Shown one piece after another: positions 9,852 through 42,376 of a stretch of 45,317 nt of DNA. Below the pieces are notes generated by a model, which saw only the letters and a list, made by a program, of their open reading frames with translations, was not told where the DNA came from and did no database searches. The translations under genes and the position numbers were made by a program. Within the stretch, counting starts at the first letter, position 1; each line of letters begins with the position of its first letter. Source of the stretch: Erysipelotrichia bacterium (lineage in GTDB: Bacteria; Bacillota_I; Bacilli_A; Erysipelotrichales; Erysipelotrichaceae); NCBI GenBank assembly GCA_012799935.1, contig JAAZKG010000089.1:1-45317 (forward strand), given 5' to 3'.

Positions 9852-11375
9852 ATGAAAAGAAAAAAAGAATTAATTGCAATATTTATAAGCCTTATTTTAT
9901 CTATTTTGATTGTTATGTTTTTTCCTTCAAACATTGGAAAACAAGCACTCATCTCTAATATCAACTTGAGTGAAGAAAAATCACACATTGCTCAAAAAAT
10001 TGAATATGTATCATTGGAGCCTATTGATGTAATAAAGGTTTATCATAAGGGTAATTTGATAGGTATTATCTATGATAGTGAACTCATTCAAAATGCTATT
10101 GACATGGAAGAGGCAAAATTAGCTGGAACAAAGTTTGAAGGCTATGAGATTGATATTAGTAGTGAACTATATATTTTAAAAGAGAAATCTTTCTGGAAAT
10201 ACGAAAATAAAGATCAAGAAATATTATCGTATATTATTGATAACAACCTTTTAGTTGTTCAGGCAGTTAGGATAGATATTGTTAAGGAAAATGATATAGT
10301 CGATACGATATATGTAAAGTCTATCGAAGAGTTTTCTAATGCTTTAAGAAGATTTGCTTTATGTTTTATTGATGAAAAGACTTATGTTGCTTTAGAAAAT
10401 CATGAAAAGATTCTGGATTTAACCACTTATGGAAGTCAGGATAAAAATATTTACATTGAAGAAACTATTAAAGCAACTCCTACTGGAGCTAGCACTAAAG
10501 AACTTTTTGCTGATGAAGAGGCAATCTTTATGTACTTATGTTATGGGCGAGATTATCAATTGGAATACTATACAGTTGTTGAATATGATACTATCAGTGG
10601 TGTTGCTTCAAAAACAGGTTTATTAGCTAAACAGCTTTTGGCAATAAATGATGATATTGATAATATAAACCAAGCTTTGATAGTAGGCCAACAATTAATT
10701 GTTACTTATTTTACTCCACCAATAACAGTAGTTGTGGAGCAACAACGTTTAGTGCAAGAAGTAACATATCCAACAGAAAGTACATATACTTTTGATATGA
10801 CATTAAAAAGAGGAGAGGTAGTTGAAGATGTTGCTCCTGCAACAGGATATAACGATGCTACTTACACGGATATTTACGTAAATGGCATCCTTACAAGTTA
10901 TCGTCAAGATAGCGTGGTGGTAAGGGTTGAACCAACAGTTGGCCAATATAGATATAATATGCAAGATTATAGTGATCGAGGAGTATTTTTCTCATTACCT
11001 GTAAGAAACCCGGTTATTACCTGTGACTTTTATTGTTATGCCAATCATCATGGTTGTGACTTTATTGATAGATATAATCGTTATGGTGATGTTTTAGCTG
11101 TTGCTGATGGCACAGTTATTAGAAAAGGTTATAACTCAACTATGGGATACTATTATTACATCAATCATAGTAATGGTATTATAGCTAGGTATTTACATAT
11201 GAAGACACCAGGATATAAAGAAATTGGAGATATTGTTTTAAGAGGAGAAGTAATTGGACAAATTGGAAATACTGGGCGCAGTACTGGACCGCACTTAGAT
11301 ATTGGTATTTATATTGATGGAAAACTTATTGATCCATGTTGGGTTTTGCCTTGTGAACAGGCCTCTTATTGGTAA
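9852..11375 (+). CDS. Membrane-anchored LysM / G5-like / M23 peptidase-fold protein
   Basis: The 507-residue protein has an N-terminal signal anchor (MKRKKELIAIFISLILSILI). A long unassigned region follows, then a LysM-like segment (YTVVEYDTISGVASKTGLLA), a G5-like module (about residues 295-365) and a C-terminal LytM/M23 domain. In the M23 domain the first zinc-ligand motif is intact (HHGCD) and the YLHM histidine is present. The usual HxH motif reads PHLDIGI, so the last zinc ligand is Asp483 instead of His. The domain may bind metal differently or be inactive. Upstream start codons exist in the frame, but this ATG falls one base after the dnaB stop with GAGGG in front. The end overlaps walJ by one base (TAATG). 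Confidence 0.8.
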   Translation: MKRKKELIAIFISLILSILIVMFFPSNIGKQALISNINLSEEKSHIAQKIEYVSLEPIDVIKVYHKGNLIGIIYDSELIQNAIDMEEAKLAGTKFEGYEIDISSELYILKEKSFWKYENKDQEILSYIIDNNLLVVQAVRIDIVKENDIVDTIYVKSIEEFSNALRRFALCFIDEKTYVALENHEKILDLTTYGSQDKNIYIEETIKATPTGASTKELFADEEAIFMYLCYGRDYQLEYYTVVEYDTISGVASKTGLLAKQLLAINDDIDNINQALIVGQQLIVTYFTPPITVVVEQQRLVQEVTYPTESTYTFDMTLKRGEVVEDVAPATGYNDATYTDIYVNGILTSYRQDSVVVRVEPTVGQYRYNMQDYSDRGVFFSLPVRNPVITCDFYCYANHHGCDFIDRYNRYGDVLAVADGTVIRKGYNSTMGYYYYINHSNGIIARYLHMKTPGYKEIGDIVLRGEVIGQIGNTGRSTGPHLDIGIYIDGKLIDPCWVLPCEQASYW

Positions 11376-33626: not shown

Positions 33627-34728
33627 ATGGAACTATATGAAATTAAACAACAATTACCTATCATTTCAAGCAATGTAGAAGCCTTAAAGGAGTCTCTTTG
33701 ACTGGGAAACAAAACAGCAAAGAATTGATGAAATAGATAAATTAATGCTTGATGAAAACTTTTGGTCTGATAGAAAAAAGGCCCAAAGTTTAATTGATGA
33801 AGCTAATTCTTTAAGAGATATATTAGAAAATATGCAGATTTTATCATCTTCGATTGAAGAGATTGAAGATTTGTTAAATTCTTTAAAAGATGATGAAGAT
33901 GAAGAAATTCAAATATTGATACAGCAAGAATTTGAAGAAATAATTGAAAGATATCAACAATTTGAAATAAGTATTTTATTATCAGAACCTTATGATCGAC
34001 ATAATGCGATTATCGAACTTCATCCAGGAGCTGGAGGAACTGAATCTCAAGATTGGGCTCAAATGCTATATCGCATGTATACTAGATACTGCACTTTAAA
34101 AGAGTTTAAGGTAACAATTTTAGATTATTTAGATGGAGATGAAGCAGGGTTAAAATCTTGTAGTATGCTAGTTGAAGGACCTTTAGCCTATGGCTATTTA
34201 AAAGGCGAAAAAGGAGTACATCGTTTGGTTAGGATTTCTCCTTTTGATTCAGGAGGTAGAAGACATACTTCTTTTGCTAGTGTTGATGTTATGCCTGAAT
34301 TTGAAGATGATATTGTTATTGATATTAAACCTGAAGATTTAGAAATTGATACTCATCGTGCTTCAGGAGCGGGTGGACAGCATGTAAATAAAACTGATTC
34401 AGCAGTTAGAGTTACCCATAAACCTACTGGCATTGTAACTACTTGTCAATCAGAAAGAAGTCAACTTCAAAATAGAGAAAGAGCTATCAATATGTTAAAA
34501 AGCAAACTTTATCAAAGACATATTGAACAGCAACAAGAAAAACTGGCAGCCATTAAAGGTGAGCAAAAGCTTATTGAATGGGGTTCACAAATTAGAAGTT
34601 ATATCTTTTGCCCGTACACTTTAGTTAAAGACCATCGTACCAACTATGAAGAAACAAATGTTGAAAGAGTTATGGATGGTCAAATAGATGAATTTATTTA
34701 CTCTTACTTAAAGAGTCAAATTGATTAA
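33627..34728 (+). CDS. prfB: Peptide chain release factor 2 with programmed +1 frameshift
   Basis: RF2 ends translation at UGA and UAA. The first frame encodes 24 residues from ATG at 33627 and stops at TGA 33699-33701. Skipping T33699 continues as [10 protein letters not shown] and then the main body, for 366 residues in total. The slippery site CTT-TGA-C preceded by AAAGGAG is the classical autoregulatory signal: low RF2 favours slipping. The SPF anticodon-like motif in [11 protein letters not shown] and the catalytic [13 protein letters not shown] (GGQ about 249) are present. It follows secA by two bases, the usual Firmicutes order. The coding sequence should be read as 33627-33698 joined to 33700-34728. 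Confidence 0.96.
33687..33702 (+). promoter_or_regulatory. prfB +1 programmed frameshift site
   Basis: An internal Shine-Dalgarno-like AAAGGAG precedes TCT CTT TGA C. It lies a few bases before the CTT-TGA slip point, as in other RF2 genes. Confidence 0.95.
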
Positions 34729-34776: not shown

Positions 34777-35373
34777 ATGAGTGAAAATAATAGAAATGCC
34801 CAAGATTTAGATGAAATCTTAGAAAAAATTGAAAATATCGATGAAGTAAAAGAGGTAGAAGTGCCTTTGTTTGAAAACATTAAGTTTGAAAGTCCGTTTA
34901 AAAACGATGATAAAAGCGTTTCTTATTTTGCTACTCCAACTACAATTGAAGAAAGTGATGGAGAATATACCGTTATTGGTTCTTCAACAGTGATTGATTC
35001 TAATATTAAATGTGGCGGAAATATCAAAGTAAAAGGTCAAGTTAAAGGAAGTGTTTCAGTAAATGGTAGCGCTGATATTTTCGGAACAATTGAAGGTGAT
35101 ATTCAAGCTAATGAAGTGACATTAGAACATGGTGCTAAAGTATTAGGCAATATTATCTGTAAAGCAGATGTTAATGCTTTAGATGATAGTAAGATTGTTG
35201 GAAACATTGTTGCGAAAAATGCATATATTAATTCACATGTTGAAGGTGATTTAGAAATCTTAAATGAAGTAAAAATAACTTCAACTGGATCAATCACTGG
35301 TAAAATAGTAACTGGTAGTATTTCTGTTGCAAGTGGTGCAGTATTGAATGCCATAATTTCAATCAGACGCTAA
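34777..35373 (+). CDS. Bactofilin-family polymer-forming cytoskeletal protein (first copy)
   Basis: The 198-residue product has an acidic, unstructured N-terminal tail (about 1-60) with FENIKFESPFKNDD. The bactofilin domain from about residue 64 is a right-handed beta-helix with repeats such as VIGSSTVIDSNIKCGGNIKV, GQVKGSVSVNGSADIFGTIEG and GAKVLGNIICKADV. Bactofilins self-assemble into filaments near the membrane and help shape the cell or place envelope enzymes. It is followed after 18 bases by a paralogue. No M23 peptidase, a frequent bactofilin partner, is adjacent. Confidence 0.88.
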   Translation: MSENNRNAQDLDEILEKIENIDEVKEVEVPLFENIKFESPFKNDDKSVSYFATPTTIEESDGEYTVIGSSTVIDSNIKCGGNIKVKGQVKGSVSVNGSADIFGTIEGDIQANEVTLEHGAKVLGNIICKADVNALDDSKIVGNIVAKNAYINSHVEGDLEILNEVKITSTGSITGKIVTGSISVASGAVLNAIISIRR

Positions 35374-35391: not shown

Positions 35392-35895
35392 ATGAATGAA
35401 AAAGAATTATTCCAATCAGTAAACTTTGAATCACCATTTCAAAGTGATAATAGAAATAAAGCAAATAATGATGATGAACTAACCATTATTGGTTCTTCTA
35501 CCGTAATTGAAGGAAAACAAGATAGTAAGATTATTTGTGGTGGCAATATTGAAATTATGGGACAGGTAAAAGGTTTGGTTGATGTTGCTGGCAGTGCTGA
35601 AATTTATGGTACGATTGATGGTCTTGTAAATGCTGAACAATTAACAGTTGAAGAAGGGTCAAAAATTAATGGAGATATTAATTGTCGAACAACCTTATCA
35701 ATCAATGGTGCTGATATTGTTGGTAATATCAAAGCTAAAAATGCTTATATCAATGCCAGTATTAAAGGTAATATTGAAGCAACAAATGACCTTAAGATAG
35801 CTAATAGCAGTGTTATTGAAGGAAACATTGCTACAGGTTCAATAAGCATTGAATCTGGGGCAGTACTTGCTGGAAATCTATTGGTCAAAAAATAA
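35392..35895 (+). CDS. Bactofilin-family polymer-forming cytoskeletal protein (second copy)
   Basis: This 167-residue paralogue of the upstream gene shares the motif NFESPFQSDN in a shorter N-terminal tail. The beta-helix core has IIGSSTVIEGKQDSKIICGG, IMGQVKGLVDVAGSAEIYGT and GNIKAKNAYINASIKGNIEA. The repeat pattern is the same, which points to tandem duplication followed by divergence. Two bactofilins may co-polymerise or form separate filaments. The gene ends at a strong bidirectional terminator. The ribosome binding site is AAGGAG. Confidence 0.88.
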   Translation: MNEKELFQSVNFESPFQSDNRNKANNDDELTIIGSSTVIEGKQDSKIICGGNIEIMGQVKGLVDVAGSAEIYGTIDGLVNAEQLTVEEGSKINGDINCRTTLSINGADIVGNIKAKNAYINASIKGNIEATNDLKIANSSVIEGNIATGSISIESGAVLAGNLLVKK

Positions 35896-35966: not shown

Positions 35967-36239
35967 TTACTTTTGTATTTTCTCATTTTCAGTGTTAATA
36001 GATGTTTCTTTTATTTTTGGGTTTTCCATCGTTACACTATAAGGTTTTCTTCCTAAAATCCCATTACCTGGTCTTTTTTGGTGTCTATTATTAGGGCTGA
36101 AAGGTCGGCGTTTGTGATATTTTTTATATACATCACCATCATAAGTTTGACTTAAATGATTAATTGATTTATTTCTACGATACCTAACATAGAGATAAAC
36201 GGCTGTTATTGAACCAAATGCCACCAGAATAGGGGTCAT
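35967..36239 (-). CDS. Small basic single-TM hypothetical protein
   Basis: I do not recognise the family. The 90-residue product has one N-terminal membrane segment (MTPILVAFGSITAVYLYVRY), then a highly basic middle (RRNKSINH, KKYHKRRPFSPNNRHQKRP) and a polar tail. It starts 3 bases after the TelA-like gene, with AAAGGAA before the ATG, so it is co-transcribed with it. A short membrane-anchored basic protein might tether or recruit the TelA protein, but this is inference from position only. Confidence 0.7.
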   Translation of the reverse strand: MTPILVAFGSITAVYLYVRYRRNKSINHLSQTYDGDVYKKYHKRRPFSPNNRHQKRPGNGILGRKPYSVTMENPKIKETSINTENEKIQK

Positions 36240-36242
36240 CTT

Positions 36243-37385
36243 TTAGTTTTCCTTTCTGATTTCTAATAATTTGTTTTTTAATTCGTTTTCTAATTTTCTC
36301 AATTCAATTTCAGCAGCATTTCTTCTGATTCTACCATCAGATTGAATTCTTAATACTTCATCCAAAGTTTCAATTAGAGATCTATTAGTATATTGTAATG
36401 TTTCAATTTCAACAATACTTCTTTCACTTGCTTGTGCTGTCTCAATTGTACCTTGCTTTAATGACTCAGCATTTTTCTTCAATAATTCATTGGTCATCTT
36501 ATCAACAGCAGCTTCTGCATCAATAGCTTCTTTTGCATGAGATAAACCAAGAGCAATAACCATTTGTGATCTCCATAAAGGAATAGTATTGACTAAGGTA
36601 GATTGAATTTTTTCTGCCATTAAAGTGTCATTGTTTTGAATTAATCTAATTTGAGGTGACATTTGAACAGCAATCATTCTAGTCATTTCCAAATCATGAA
36701 TTTTCTTTTCAAAACGATTGATAAGTTGCGCATAATCATTTGCTTTTTGAGCATCTTCAACCAAACCTGTTTCTTGGGCAATAGCTTTTAATTTAGGAAG
36801 TTCCAAATTAACTGCTTGTTCCAATTTCTTTTGCCCAGCAACGATATACATTGTAAGTTCTTTTTTGTTTATTTCGTTTTTATCGTAAAGTTCATCTAAA
36901 ATAGCGATATCTTTTAAGAGTGTAATTTGATGTTCTTCTAATAAAGTGCAAATCTTATTAACATTAATATCGACTTTATCATAATTAGCTTTTAAAGCTG
37001 CTATTTTATTTTTCCCTTTTCGAAAAAAACCTTTTAATCCTTTTGATTCTCCTTCTGCATCAAAATCTTTTAATTCGACAACCAAATCAGAAATCATACC
37101 GCCAATTTGACCTAAGTCTTTAGTTCTAATATTTTCTAAAGTAGTTGTTGAGAAATTAGAGATTTTCTTTTGTGAATTAGCTCCATAGCTCATAATAACA
37201 TCAGTATCTGTAATATCGATTTTTTCTGCAAATTCATCAACCATTTTAATTTCTTCTTCAGATAAAGTTGATAAATCTAGTTTTGCTGGAACAATTTTTT
37301 CTGTTTCAATGGTTTCAGTTACTACTTGTTGTTGAGCCTGTTCATTTTTTGGGTCTAAAGTTAAGACAATTTTTTCTTGATCCAT
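36243..37385 (-). CDS. TelA/YaaN family (toxic anion resistance) protein
   Basis: The 380-residue, largely helical cytoplasmic protein has the TelA family core. Its signature is RMIAVQMSPQIRLIQNNDTL, followed by LVNTIPLWRSQMVIALGLSH. An earlier conserved block is FRKGKNKIAALKANYDKV. Family members (TelA, YaaN, YceH) were linked to tellurite or antibiotic stress, but their molecular action is unknown. In Bacillus subtilis yaaN is next to xpaC. Here the two are about 4 kb apart on the same strand. The N-terminal 40 residues are charged and probably disordered. The ribosome binding site is GGAGG. Confidence 0.88.
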   Translation of the reverse strand: MDQEKIVLTLDPKNEQAQQQVVTETIETEKIVPAKLDLSTLSEEEIKMVDEFAEKIDITDTDVIMSYGANSQKKISNFSTTTLENIRTKDLGQIGGMISDLVVELKDFDAEGESKGLKGFFRKGKNKIAALKANYDKVDINVNKICTLLEEHQITLLKDIAILDELYDKNEINKKELTMYIVAGQKKLEQAVNLELPKLKAIAQETGLVEDAQKANDYAQLINRFEKKIHDLEMTRMIAVQMSPQIRLIQNNDTLMAEKIQSTLVNTIPLWRSQMVIALGLSHAKEAIDAEAAVDKMTNELLKKNAESLKQGTIETAQASERSIVEIETLQYTNRSLIETLDEVLRIQSDGRIRRNAAEIELRKLENELKNKLLEIRKEN

Positions 37386-37421
37386 ATTTTAATCCTCCAT
37401 TTTTCATAAATCACTAAATTT

Positions 37422-37430
37422 ATTATATCA
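37422..37430 (-). promoter_or_regulatory. Extended -10 promoter of the TelA-like gene
   Basis: On the minus strand TGA precedes TATAAT (37422-37427), with no good -35. It is about 40 bases before the TelA start. Confidence 0.55.
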
Positions 37431-37569
37431 TAACTAATTAAATAGTATCATCCCTTAAATGATAAGTAAGTTTAACTTTTGGTAAAAAATAGATAAATTT
37501 TCTGTAAAGATAATTAAATCTTTTTACACAATACGAATTGTAATAAAACTAACTAATTTAAAACATAAA

Positions 37570-37578
37570 TGATATAAT
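37570..37578 (+). promoter_or_regulatory. Extended -10 promoter of the lipoprotein gene
   Basis: TGA followed by TATAAT (37573-37578), with a weak -35. The lipoprotein gene begins about 90 bases downstream, so its leader is longer than most in this window. Confidence 0.5.
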
Positions 37579-37670
37579 AAGTGCATAAATAAATATTAAT
37601 AATAAAAAGAGCTAAACATTTAAATGATGTTGTTTTTTTAAAAGTATTTTAAGAAAGGGAAAGATAAGAA

Positions 37671-38525
37671 ATGAAAAAAACACTAATTTTAATTTTTACT
37701 TTATTACTGATGATTGCAATTACTGCATGTAAAAAAGATGTTAAACCAGATAACAATAACGATAATGAAATTGTTTTTTCTGAATTTGTTGCTATAGAAA
37801 ATGAAAACTGTTCTATCAAAATTCAAGAAATTAATCTTGATGATCCATTAACATTTATATTCAAAGCAGAATTTGAAAACAAATCTGCTGATAAAACTTA
37901 TGTTTTTTATACAGAAAGTGTATCTATTAATGGTGTTCAATGTGATCCTTATTTTTCAGTTGAAGTAAAAGCAGGAGAAAAAGCTAGTTATAGCATTGAT
38001 TTACTTGCAGAAGAACTTGTCAATAATGGTATTGGTGATTTCACTGATATTAAAATTACCTTCCGTGTTTATGATAACGATGATTGGCATTCAGATCCTG
38101 TTGTATATGAAACAATTCATATCTATCCTTATGGGGAGGATAAAGCTGTTACCTTCATTAGAAAATCTCAGCCAAAGGACAATGTAATAATAGATAATGA
38201 ATATGCTAAGGTGATTGTAACAGGTTATGATCCTAAAGGAGTGCATGGTTATACCATCAATCTGTTTTTGATTAATAAAACCAATAATTTAGTGATGTTT
38301 TCTATTGAAGAACTATATGTTAATGGATATCAGATTGATTACTATTACTCTTTATCAGTTTCTGGTGAAAACAGTTCATTTAGCTACATATTTTTTCCTA
38401 AAGAAGTATTAGAAGAAAAGAGTATTGATAAAATCAAAACAATAGAAATGATTTTTAAAGCATACAATATTAACAATCTTACAAGCATTCTTTATGTAAA
38501 TGAAACAATTTATTTAAAACCATAA
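37671..38525 (+). CDS. Lipoprotein with two repeated domains
   Basis: The 284-residue product has a lipoprotein signal peptide with lipobox ITAC and lipidated Cys20, then a short Asn/Asp-rich linker. Two domains of about 110 residues follow (about 45-155 and 165-284). They share a common plan: a short strand (NCSIKIQEI / EYAKVIVTGY), a longer strand pair ending in a SVSING / ELYVNG turn, a SYSIDLL / SFSYIFF strand, and a final DIKITFRVYD / TIEMIFKAYN followed by ETIHIYP / ETIYLKP. They look like duplicated immunoglobulin-like domains. No enzyme motif was seen. It sits opposite the flanking minus-strand genes, with its own promoter and terminator, between TelA and the AAA+ gene. Confidence 0.82.
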   Translation: MKKTLILIFTLLLMIAITACKKDVKPDNNNDNEIVFSEFVAIENENCSIKIQEINLDDPLTFIFKAEFENKSADKTYVFYTESVSINGVQCDPYFSVEVKAGEKASYSIDLLAEELVNNGIGDFTDIKITFRVYDNDDWHSDPVVYETIHIYPYGEDKAVTFIRKSQPKDNVIIDNEYAKVIVTGYDPKGVHGYTINLFLINKTNNLVMFSIEELYVNGYQIDYYYSLSVSGENSSFSYIFFPKEVLEEKSIDKIKTIEMIFKAYNINNLTSILYVNETIYLKP

Positions 38526-38620
38526 AAGTAACAATCCAATAACTGATATTTTAAAGTTAATGATAAATGATAATGTAATAATATATAAAAAGAAAATATT
38601 TGTACTGATTAAGATATAAA

Positions 38621-38652
38621 AAAAGGTGATTAATCTTTGCAAATCACCTTTT
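38621..38652. terminator. Bidirectional terminator
   Basis: An 11-bp stem AAAAGGTGATT / AATCACCTTTT with a 10-base loop lies between the convergent lipoprotein and AAA+ genes. Confidence 0.75.
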
Positions 38653-38700
38653 AACTTATTTGTTTAAAATATAAAGTTTTTTAATGCTTATAAAAGTAGT

Positions 38701-40749
38701 TTAATTTAGAATTTCTTTTTCAATTATTTTGTCAAAATCTTCTAGAGTTAATAGATCAATTTGTGCATTATCATCGTTTAGAATTCTAGTTGACTGATAT
38801 CTAATTGCTTCTTCGATAACATTTCTAGATAGACGTCCATTACCGCTTCTTACTGAATCATTTTCTTGAACTTTAGTAAAATAATCAGTTAATGGCAGTT
38901 TGACTTCATCAGCAACTTTATAACCTTTGCTTTTGGCATTAATCATCGCAATATCATATAATTCTTGCCCGGTATAATCAGGGAATTCAATTTGATTAGG
39001 GAATCTTGATTTTAATCCTGAGTTAGATTCTAAGAAATCTTGCATTTCTCTAGTATAGCCAGCCAAGATAACGATAAGATCTTCTCTATTATCTTCCATC
39101 GCTTTTACTAAGGTATCGATACATTCTAAGCCAAAAGAGTCGTTAGTACCACGATATAATGAGTAAGCTTCATCGATAAATAGGATACCACCCATGGCAG
39201 ATTTGATTACCTGCATGGTTAGTGGAGCAGTATGACCAACATATTTACCTACTAAATCGCTTCTGCTTACTTCAATTAATTGTCCATTACTTAAAACACC
39301 AATCGCTTTTAAGTATTTGGCTAAAAGTCTGGCGATAGTTGTTTTCCCAGTTCCTGGATTACCAGTAAAAATCATATGCTTACTTACTTCAGTAGTTGAC
39401 AAGCCTTCTTTTTGTCTAAGTTTTTGTGCTGCATAGAAGTCTTGTAAAGATAAAATATATTCTTTGATAGTTGTTAAACCAACAATATTATCAAGTTCTT
39501 TTTGGACTTCCTCCATCGCATTATCAATTACTTTTGGCAGATACTGTTGAAGTTGTTTATCATTGATAAATAACTCGTTTTCCTGATAATGTAAATTAAT
39601 ATCGACAGTTTCAGTTATCTTTTCTGATAATTTGTATTCTGATAAACCACCATAGATTTTATCAAACAGATTGATTAAAAATTCAACATTTTCTGAGCGA
39701 TATTGATTTTTAATATAATCAACTAAATTATCATCACAATTAATATTGATATTTAAATTAGTTAAACATCTTAGTTTGAAACCTTCTAATTTAGAAGGGT
39801 AGATTTCAACGATGTCATCTTTAGATAGTTTATTGGTGTATAAAGAATCTGAGATAGTATTGATAAATCTAGATCCAACGACATTCAATAGTTTATTTGT
39901 TCTTAGGGTTGTAATAAAGATTAAATATTTACCTTTGAAGTTTAACTCTGAAACAGTATTTTTAACTAGTGAAGTAGTTGCTTCAACCAATTGCTTGTTA
40001 TTTAAAATATAACGTTTATTTAGTGAAAGTTTGCCCTCGACAAGAATTTCTTCAATATAACCCAAATATGAAGGACTAACAGAATCAATATTATCAAATA
40101 CAATGATTTGACTATTATTAATTGCTCCATATAGGTCAATGATGAAGTTGTTTTCATCTTCTTTACCGGCATATTTTAATAAATCAATTAAAAATACCCT
40201 GCTATTAGATAGAATGTTTGTTTCCAGTAGCAGTTTGCCCATTTGTTCGATAGAACTGTGTCTGCCAGTAAAGTTTTCTCCAGTAATTAGAATGCCAGCA
40301 TTTAAACCACTTAATTGTTGACCCATAATAAAAGGACGTTTAAAAGCACGACATAATGAAGAAATATAATTTTCTTGTTTTTTTACTAACGAATTTAACT
40401 TGCCTTCAATATATTCAAATTTCGAATTTAATTCTGCTTGATTTTCTACGATGTTAATAGTACTGACTTGTTCAATAGGAAATTCAGTTCCAAAATCATC
40501 TTTAATCGATTGTTTTAAAGAACCCATATCCAAATCAACACTATAGATTTGATCCATTAATGTTTCTGTTTGTTGTTTGATTTTGTCACTATTTTCCTTT
40601 AATCTTTGTAACTCTTCGCTTAATGGTTCATTAGTAAAAGGGTTGTTTTTTAATATTGCGATATCAGATTCTGTCAATGTTCTTTTAGGAGCATCTTTAC
40701 CTAAAATCTGTTCATAAAGCAATTCTCGTTCTGTTTTCTTTTTTGACAT
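38701..40749 (-). CDS. Tandem AAA+ ATPase (CbbX/SpoVK-like) with a degenerate first module
   Basis: The 682-residue protein has a helical N-terminus (about 1-135). A first AAA-like module follows (about 140-310), with GENFTGRHS (157-165) in place of Walker A and VFDN at Walker B, so it probably does not hydrolyse ATP. The second module (about 415-675) is a CbbX/SpoVK-type AAA+ with GNPGTGKTTIAR (463-474), GILFIDEAYSL (521-531), the LAGYTREM sensor region and arginine finger Arg582 in SRFPNQIEF. CbbX-type ATPases remodel protein substrates. Its start is 2 bases after the stop of the 176-residue gene, so the two are translated together with the XpaC gene. The substrate is unknown. No Rubisco or sporulation gene is nearby. 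Confidence 0.88.
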   Translation of the reverse strand: MSKKKTERELLYEQILGKDAPKRTLTESDIAILKNNPFTNEPLSEELQRLKENSDKIKQQTETLMDQIYSVDLDMGSLKQSIKDDFGTEFPIEQVSTINIVENQAELNSKFEYIEGKLNSLVKKQENYISSLCRAFKRPFIMGQQLSGLNAGILITGENFTGRHSSIEQMGKLLLETNILSNSRVFLIDLLKYAGKEDENNFIIDLYGAINNSQIIVFDNIDSVSPSYLGYIEEILVEGKLSLNKRYILNNKQLVEATTSLVKNTVSELNFKGKYLIFITTLRTNKLLNVVGSRFINTISDSLYTNKLSKDDIVEIYPSKLEGFKLRCLTNLNININCDDNLVDYIKNQYRSENVEFLINLFDKIYGGLSEYKLSEKITETVDINLHYQENELFINDKQLQQYLPKVIDNAMEEVQKELDNIVGLTTIKEYILSLQDFYAAQKLRQKEGLSTTEVSKHMIFTGNPGTGKTTIARLLAKYLKAIGVLSNGQLIEVSRSDLVGKYVGHTAPLTMQVIKSAMGGILFIDEAYSLYRGTNDSFGLECIDTLVKAMEDNREDLIVILAGYTREMQDFLESNSGLKSRFPNQIEFPDYTGQELYDIAMINAKSKGYKVADEVKLPLTDYFTKVQENDSVRSGNGRLSRNVIEEAIRYQSTRILNDDNAQIDLLTLEDFDKIIEKEILN

Positions 40750-40751
40750 AA

Positions 40752-41282
40752 TTATTTACCAACCTTATTAGCTAATTCTGCCAGTTTTGCCAGTTTTGAA
40801 TTGTTTAAAATCTTTTTCATCATTAACAAAGCATCGTAATAACCTCTTAAATAATCATCAGTGTTAGATGTTCTGACTTTATTTTTATAGGTAGCCATAT
40901 CAACACTGACTTGTTGGTCAAAGGCTTTTAAAGAATTTTGATGTTTTTTAATTTCTTCTAAGTAATAAGTAATAGCTTTTTGATAGCCTTCTTTTTTGCT
41001 TTCAGGATATTTATCATAAACAATATTTTCTAGGCAATTAACAATATGCAGGTATCTAGAACTGTACTTAGCATTTTCAACAGTTCTGCTAATATGTGGC
41101 ACAACAGTTTTATAGTTTGTTGTCGAATAGACATTACCTCGTTTAGTTGTTTTCTTTTGAGTGCCTAATACACTGTCATTAATTGTTTTTTCAAATTCAT
41201 AAAGACTTTGATCAACAAAATCACCATTATTTAATTTGGCTAACATTTCATCCAGTGATTCACTCCAAGGTTTTTCACTCAT
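40752..41282 (-). CDS. Hypothetical protein between XpaC and AAA+ genes
   Basis: I do not recognise this 176-residue family. It is soluble, mostly helical and charged, with no signal peptide or membrane segment. Notable parts are the central VVPHISRTVENAKYSSRYLH, a helix YYLEEIKKHQNSLKAFDQQ and a C-terminal YLRGYYDALLMMKKILNNS. It lies between an XpaC-like membrane protein (3 bases upstream) and the tandem AAA+ ATPase (2 bases downstream), so a role as an adaptor between the two is possible but only inferred. The ribosome binding site AGGAGGG is inside the end of the XpaC gene. Confidence 0.75.
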   Translation of the reverse strand: MSEKPWSESLDEMLAKLNNGDFVDQSLYEFEKTINDSVLGTQKKTTKRGNVYSTTNYKTVVPHISRTVENAKYSSRYLHIVNCLENIVYDKYPESKKEGYQKAITYYLEEIKKHQNSLKAFDQQVSVDMATYKNKVRTSNTDDYLRGYYDALLMMKKILNNSKLAKLAELANKVGK

Positions 41283-41285
41283 AGT

Positions 41286-42278
41286 TTATCCCTCCTGATT
41301 CTGTAATTCATCTACTAGACCATCTTTTTTCAAGATTGATTCTAGTGTACGCATATCAACATTTAACTCAGTATAGTAATCTTCAACTAAAGAACTAGAG
41401 ATTGTATTCAAAGCTCCATTAATTAAAACGGTAGTTTTTAATAAACGGTCTTCACTGTTTTTAAAATCAGCAGTATTATTCACGTTAATTGATAAGCGTT
41501 TATAGTTGCTGACAATATCAGTTAACATTGGTAAATAGTATTGATATAATTTAATAGTTTTATTTTTACTGTCAGTAAATTCATCTTCAATTTTCTTAAT
41601 AGATTGTAAATGATGAATTGTTTCTTCCAAACCTTTAGTAACTTGTTGGTTTTCAATACCATCTTTAAGTTGTGATAATTCTTTAATATAGAAAGCACAG
41701 TCTTTGTCAAATGTTTTAACAATTTCTTTTTGAATTTCTTCAACAACTTGAGTTTCAGATAAGTTTTTGTTATTTAGGTATTTATTAATTAGATTTGATA
41801 AGGAATTGAAAGAATTAGGGTAAGCATTAAAATAATCCTTTAATGAACCAATATATTCTTCACGCATATAAATGTCGATGGTATCTAATGAGATATCATT
41901 TTTATCTGTTATAACTAAATAGGTTTCATCATCAATGTTGAGTTGTTGATTCTTTTCAAAGAATTTTTCAATTTTTCTTAATAGTTTTTTATGTGAGATA
42001 GTAGGAGTGGCTGTGCTAGCAACAGTATTTGAAGTACTTTTGCCTTTTCTTTTTTTGATTGCATCGACAATAAGTTTGATGCCTATCGCAATAAAGATAA
42101 ATGGCGCAATTAAAAACCCACCTATCAGTAGTAATGGAAAGATAATTTCAAAGAAAATACCAATCAATCCAAAAGCACCTCCAAAAACCAATTCAGCAAG
42201 ACCTGAAAAAACACTTATAAATAAAATGAATGCAATCAGTGCGCCAGGTCCACTATCACGTCTTCTATTTCTAGCCAT
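41286..42278 (-). CDS. XpaC-like membrane protein (5-bromo-4-chloroindolyl phosphate hydrolysis family)
   Basis: The 330-residue product begins with a basic segment and two close membrane helices (about 12-70). A Ser/Thr-rich linker follows, then a long helical cytoplasmic region. The C-terminal 120 residues match the XpaC family: KTIKLYQYYLPMLTDIVSNY, then ALNTISSSLVEDYYTELNVD and LESILKKDGL. XpaC was named for a phosphatase phenotype in Bacillus subtilis, but its function is unknown; there xpaC is next to the TelA-family gene yaaN. The gene heads the three-gene operon with the 176-residue protein and the AAA+ ATPase. The ribosome binding site is GGGAGG. Confidence 0.82.
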   Translation of the reverse strand: MARNRRRDSGPGALIAFILFISVFSGLAELVFGGAFGLIGIFFEIIFPLLLIGGFLIAPFIFIAIGIKLIVDAIKKRKGKSTSNTVASTATPTISHKKLLRKIEKFFEKNQQLNIDDETYLVITDKNDISLDTIDIYMREEYIGSLKDYFNAYPNSFNSLSNLINKYLNNKNLSETQVVEEIQKEIVKTFDKDCAFYIKELSQLKDGIENQQVTKGLEETIHHLQSIKKIEDEFTDSKNKTIKLYQYYLPMLTDIVSNYKRLSINVNNTADFKNSEDRLLKTTVLINGALNTISSSLVEDYYTELNVDMRTLESILKKDGLVDELQNQEG

Positions 42279-42299
42279 GGTATACCTCCCATTTAGAAT

Positions 42300-42308
42300 A
42301 TTATAACA
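42300..42308 (-). promoter_or_regulatory. Extended -10 promoter of the XpaC-AAA+ operon
   Basis: On the minus strand TGT precedes TATAAT (42300-42305). It is about 20 bases before the XpaC start and back-to-back with the uvrA promoter. Confidence 0.55.
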
Positions 42309-42344
42309 TTTTTACTGTATACATTATATATTATTTTCAGTTTA

Positions 42345-42353
42345 TGATAAAAT
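42345..42353 (+). promoter_or_regulatory. Extended -10 promoter of uvrA
   Basis: TGA followed by TAAAAT (42348-42353). The uvrA start is 23 bases downstream. No LexA-like CGAACNNNNGTTCG box was seen in this gap. Confidence 0.5.
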
Positions 42354-42376
42354 AGAAAGGTGTGAAAGAGGTTATT

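Follow-up and report, generated by a model that had tools for sequence, protein, structure and literature searches.

A conserved gene module encoding an unusual AAA+ protein, its link to TelA in Erysipelotrichaceae, and a candidate role in envelope stress

Genes and proteins of the locus

We analyzed a window consisting of the whole 45,317-nt stretch of contig JAAZKG010000089.1 from an Erysipelotrichia bacterium (GCA_012799935.1), to which all positions refer. Five open reading frames (ORFs) on its minus strand, read as a single candidate envelope or stress machine in an original prediction made from the sequence alone, were confirmed at the places given there. They are xpaC1 (41286..42278), which encodes an XpaC-like membrane protein of 330 amino acids; orf176 (40752..41282), a helical protein of 176 amino acids without known family; AAA (38701..40749), a two-module AAA+ protein of 682 amino acids; telA (36243..37385), a TelA/YaaN family protein of 380 amino acids; and small90 (35967..36239), a small basic protein of 90 amino acids. 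Gaps of 3 bases between xpaC1 and orf176, 2 between orf176 and AAA, and 3 between telA and small90 were likewise confirmed. Our main finding is that in Erysipelotrichaceae, a family of gut bacteria, xpaC1, orf176, and AAA stay together as a module, and that within the family genomes sampled, orf176 and AAA occur only where TelA is present.

The five genes do not form one unit. An orphan lipoprotein gene on the plus strand (37671..38525; lipobox ITAC), absent from the original prediction and not part of the system, separates AAA from telA, so the window has two transcription units, xpaC1-orf176-AAA and telA-small90. Comparison of sister genomes revealed that this lipoprotein gene is present only in the window and in G002, while a different 606-amino-acid ORF occupies the same slot in G006; the AAA-telA slot thus seems prone to insertion. 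AAA directly adjoins telA in other sister genomes, ~160 base pairs apart in G001 and G005 and ~40 base pairs apart in G003 and G004, and the split arrangement of the window looks derived.

TelA itself is unambiguous as a profile assignment, since the window protein matches PF05816 with E 1.4e-112 and 376.6 bits against a cut-off of 30, over profile positions 1-331 of 332. The 90-residue protein was dropped from the core because it is limited to four genomes of one genus. It has no family match in Pfam or NCBIfam, and the single transmembrane segment earlier ascribed to it is evident on inspection of the homologue from G006 but only borderline by hydropathy in the window copy.

XpaC1 has the N-terminal membrane hairpin and helical bundle of the XpaC family, as judged from hydropathy and a structural model. 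The transmembrane hairpin is predicted at residues 11-78 (42045-42248, minus strand) and the XpaC-type bundle at residues 194-325 (41304-41699, minus strand). Between them the model places an alpha/beta domain of ~75 amino acids (residues 94-169, 41772-41999, minus strand), confidently modelled and missing from the XpaC proteins of sister operons. Although the window copy has no Pfam match, the XpaC-like label held at the level of the family: 38 of 42 members match PF10112 (Halogen_Hydrol; best 9.9e-11), and the family profile matches the true XpaC of sister operons with 98.2% probability (E 2.9e-14). By these comparisons, XpaC1 is a divergent XpaC subfamily, homologous in its C-terminal part. 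Searches of the PDB by sequence and by fold returned no significant match to XpaC1, its alpha/beta domain included.

The orphan status of the 176-residue protein was upheld, as no known family was matched in Pfam or NCBIfam. Its model is helical, with a mean predicted local distance difference test score (pLDDT) of 84, and comparison with solved structures gave nothing significant by sequence or fold. We rejected the idea that it is a diverged XpaC, for which profile comparisons gave 0.1% probability. Where present, orf176 sits directly after xpaC1.

The AAA protein contains two AAA+ modules, as first proposed, but these are not two equal remodellers, because the first is predicted to be inactive. 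Module 1 (residues 1-405, 39535..40749, minus strand) is of the Clp/Hsp104 D2 type: profile comparison aligned it with the AAA core and D2-small domain of these proteins, which include ClpB and ClpC (best E 2e-18), and PF10431 was matched in 7 of 28 members of its family. Its P-loop (GENFTGRH, 40258..40281, minus strand) is degenerate, with Arg replacing the Walker Lys and His replacing Thr/Ser. When residue conservation was counted over 55 AAA proteins, the Lys was Arg in 49, the next position was His, Tyr, or Arg in 54, and none carried Glu where the second acidic residue of Walker B aligns. Module 1 differs from the D2 of Clp/Hsp104 ATPases in lacking a functional Walker A and Walker B, and in lying N-terminal to another motor. 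It derives from the Clp/Hsp104 fold and is predicted from these motifs to be inactive.

Module 2 (residues 406-682, 38701..39534, minus strand) is a motor of the CbbX/SpoVK/EccA type with all catalytic motifs, close to CbbX (1.4e-61) and EccA1 (1.1e-51). Its intact Walker A (GNPGTGKT, 39340..39363, minus strand), Walker B, pore-loop Tyr, arginine finger, and sensor 2 are invariant in 55/55 proteins. The marks of the SpoVK/CbbX/EccA clade, given in one account as GY in sensor 1, an Asn before the first arginine finger, and a second arginine finger (sensor 2) (PMC10659427), are shared by module 2, and Y565, N576, R582, and R639 are again invariant in all 55. Judged by these alignments, the fusion of a dead module of Clp-D2 type with a CbbX-type motor is an unusual AAA+ architecture. 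A Clp/Hsp104 D2-type module is not among the N-terminal domains of the clade named in the passages of that account consulted here (PMC10659427).

Conservation of the module and its link to TelA

A search for orf176 in 60 relative genomes detected it in 14, each time after xpaC1, and AAA was the next gene in 12; the exceptions were one contig end and Dielma, where another gene follows. Scanning the GTDB species genomes with an XpaC1 alignment yielded 76 loci, or 77 counting the window. All loci with a taxon below phylum belong to Erysipelotrichaceae/Erysipelotrichia, among them Holdemania, Dielma, Traorella, Solobacterium, and Lactimicrobium, and the few others are named only Firmicutes or Bacillota bacterium. 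The order xpaC1-orf176-AAA is kept in 66/77 loci, xpaC1 and orf176 lie on the same strand in 75/75 and overlap by a median of 4 bases, and the median gap between orf176 and AAA is 1 base. Nine loci lack AAA (two at a contig end) and two lack orf176 (one at a contig end). Since the flanking genes fall into 23 unrelated clusters upstream and 24 downstream, the three genes stay together amid changing surroundings. The trio is a real module, and its linkage is beyond chance.

Several loci depart from the common order. In two Traorella loci (L137:7704-9456 and L143:7722-9465), two tandem copies of xpaC1 precede orf176 and AAA does not adjoin. At L182, a 149-amino-acid protein (10700-11149, minus strand), acidic and helical-looking, lies between xpaC1 and AAA in the position of orf176. 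With a score of only 8 bits we did not accept it as an orf176 homologue; it could be a partner that has diverged strongly or been replaced.

To relate the module to TelA, we used a sample of 146 genomes of the family, in which AAA was detected via its first module. orf176 was found in 53, AAA in 62, and TelA in 80, while all three were missing from 66. TelA was present in 53/53 genomes with orf176 and 62/62 genomes with AAA. Fisher tests of the association with TelA gave 7e-20 for orf176 and 3e-25 for AAA, or ~7e-8 and ~6e-9 at genus level, all uncorrected for shared ancestry. TPM, a common protein domain taken as control, was associated with TelA without being nested in it (61/80). Thus, the expectation that the AAA and 176-residue genes would co-occur with xpaC and telA in related genomes was strongly borne out. 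A second, diverged class of TelA (E ~1e-74, against 1e-113 or better) was seen in G009, G033, G563, G574, G618, and G635, genomes without AAA or orf176, some of which hold more than one copy of it.

AAA and TelA also lie close together in many genomes, at most 8 kb apart in 36 genomes of 11 genera and on the same strand every time. In several genera the genes form part of a fuller operon, xpaC1-orf176-AAA-XpaC-TelA-LemA-like-TPM, after which TM2 and DUF2752 proteins are sometimes encoded. Pfam identifies its XpaC (PF10112) and TPM (PF04536) firmly, while the LemA-like label reflects a weak match (E 0.0016 and 0.009). XpaC and TelA share one operon in many relatives, and it is the inserted lipoprotein gene that leaves telA separate in the window. 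Synteny and co-occurrence together support the proposal that the XpaC-TelA linkage is non-random and that the AAA and 176-residue genes are extra parts of the module.

Across 392 genomes of the phylum, matches to AAA module 1 with E 1e-25 or better were confined to Erysipelotrichaceae and to G044, which belongs to another family of the same order. G044 carries AAA-XpaC-TelA-LemA-like-TPM without xpaC1 or orf176. Most economically, the older core would be AAA-XpaC-TelA, with xpaC1-orf176 a later addition in Erysipelotrichaceae.

Candidate mechanism and rival explanations

Homologues of XpaC and TelA in other Bacillota point to a function in the envelope or in stress, by analogy. The B. subtilis xpaC-yaaN genes belong to the core sigma-W regulon (PMC3498285), L. 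lactis llmg_1115 (XpaC-like) and telA1 are linked to CesSR-dependent stress (PMC3139573), a liaR mutant of E. faecium shows a 7-fold rise in xpaC (PMC10269926), and Listeria telA contributes to nisin tolerance (PMC11765107). The B. subtilis and L. lactis pairs resemble the system described here in placing XpaC beside TelA/YaaN in an envelope-stress response; unlike it, they list no AAA, orf176, or second XpaC (PMC3498285, PMC3139573). In Erysipelotrichaceae, a dedicated motor joins the pair, and XpaC1 includes a further domain. One account describes the SpoVK/CbbX/EccA clade as dedicated chaperones with narrow targets, SpoVK acting on MurG and CbbX on Rubisco, and reports that no peptidase association was found for it (PMC10659427).

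The reading we favor, to which we give a probability of roughly one half, is that the XpaC-TelA envelope-stress pair has acquired a dedicated AAA+ chaperone module, whose client is TelA or an assembly of TelA with XpaC. Because the trio genes occur only in TelA-bearing genomes, the AAA motor looks like the missing helper of TelA. Given the narrow-target chaperones of its clade and the envelope-stress responses of XpaC and TelA homologues, roles can be proposed for each part. The predicted transmembrane hairpin would seat XpaC1 in the membrane as an anchor, with its XpaC bundle facing the cytoplasm. orf176, probably co-translated with XpaC1, may be the adaptor that links XpaC1 to AAA. AAA would form a double ring in which the dead Clp-type ring serves as scaffold or docking platform, while the CbbX/SpoVK/EccA-type ring would hydrolyze ATP and pull a specific client. 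The likeliest client would be TelA or the TelA-XpaC assembly at the membrane, which under envelope stress could be loaded, activated, or reset. Sequence evidence carries the gene set, its synteny, the dependence of its occurrence on TelA, the lost and kept ATPase motifs of the two modules, and the predicted membrane anchor; ring formation, the part of orf176 as adaptor, the identity of the client, and the tie to stress are inferred. The most specific form of this reading, an undescribed membrane-anchored double-ring machine in which XpaC1/orf176 recruit two rings, one a Clp pseudo-ATPase and the other a CbbX-type motor, to remodel TelA at the membrane, is a tentative proposal that we put below the general one. 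Compared with the five-gene, two-motor complex first envisaged, the system is trimmed to four core proteins, two transcription units in the window genome, and one motor module. We found no description of this gene set in the open-access literature, a search outside which most subscription papers fall.

If such a double-ring machine does remodel TelA, the widespread TelA/YaaN family, whose action is unknown, would gain its first dedicated ATP-driven partner. A motor never found without TelA in the sampled family, with an intact active site, a candidate anchor, and a candidate adaptor, makes the question testable. The answer would bear on the mode of action of both TelA and XpaC, in envelope stress as well as in the tolerance of agents that act on the envelope, nisin among them, and the system adds an unusual AAA+ architecture and a family of ~176 amino acids without known relative.

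Several observations weigh against the chaperone reading. AAA and TelA lie on separate contigs in 26 genomes, close linkage between them is absent in 10 of the 21 genera with AAA, and AAA went undetected in five genomes with orf176. In Lactimicrobium massiliense (L126:7764-10825), AAA directly follows xpaC1 and orf176 is absent. The association statistics carry no correction for shared ancestry. Finally, inspection of the sequence upstream of xpaC1 revealed no promoter of a stress type. The intergenic region between xpaC1 and uvrA (42279..42361, minus strand) carries, by eye, a sigma-A-like extended -10 (TGTTATAAT) and a GGGAGG ribosome site, and in a promoter scan matches in the xpaC1 upstream region were no commoner than in shuffles.

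One alternative, which we judge rather unlikely yet the strongest of the rivals, is that AAA, placed at the membrane by XpaC1/orf176, chaperones in the manner of SpoVK an envelope enzyme whose gene lies elsewhere, with TelA acting in parallel in the same stress response and not as client. SpoVK activates MurG, and members of its clade are thought to tune envelope synthesis, according to the account cited above (PMC10659427); that TelA often lies at a separate locus also fits. Against it stand the finding that AAA never occurs without TelA (62/62) and the direct adjacency of AAA to XpaC-TelA in both Erysipelotrichaceae and G044, and the flank clusters hold no wall-synthesis enzyme recurring beside the trio.

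It is also unlikely that these are merely co-regulated stress genes, inherited together in one family and sharing no common complex. The co-occurrence was indeed counted within one family, so that its cases are phylogenetically non-independent, and TelA is unlinked in many genera. However, the trio keeps its overlapping frames while its flanks are shuffled, and AAA and orf176 are perfectly nested in TelA genomes; for TPM, an envelope protein, this does not hold.

The TelA family name suggests a determinant of resistance to tellurite or toxic anions, but this is very improbable. YceH, encoded in the B. subtilis yceCDEFGH operon, is a TelA-family protein. That Ter-type operon is an envelope-stress operon (PMC3498285). 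It shares a TelA-family protein with the system described here, but no TerC or TerD homologue, nor any Ter domain, was identified among the scanned neighbors of the Erysipelotrichaceae system, a subset of the neighbors and of the genome. Listeria telA mutants are slightly more sensitive to tellurite, yet they are hit harder by nisin, four-fold versus two-fold (PMC11765107).

There is next to no chance that AAA truly belongs to one of the SpoVK, CbbX (Rubisco activase), or EccA (type VII secretion) families. NCBIfam models of all three match it, but each score falls under the equivalog cut-off: 313.9 bits against 422.95 for SpoVK (TIGR02881; 315.2 in the genome search), 243.7 against 459.25 for CbbX (TIGR02880), and 242.2 against 466.65 for EccA (TIGR03922). 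We therefore rejected orthology to any of them. The protein also has the extra 405-amino-acid Clp-type module, and nothing in the 84% complete genome exceeds the SpoVK cut-off. A search of that genome found no Rubisco large subunit (PF00016), on which ground we rejected a Rubisco activase. An anti-phage defense system is scarcely credible and was rejected as well, since the PADLOC matches, to IetA and TRIP13 through the AAA domain, are weak, correspond to short shared AAA stretches, and are accompanied by no credible defense match for the other four proteins.

Neighboring genes

Two tandem bactofilin (PF04519) genes on the plus strand (34777-35373 and 35392-35895) are kept beside telA in the genus. 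Close to them lies prfB, encoding release factor 2 (33628-34728, plus strand), whose annotated ORF begins at profile position 32. The sequence upstream reads ATG GAA CTA ... AGGAGT CTC TTT GAC, which makes a programmed +1 frameshift of the classic kind (CTT TGA C) likely.

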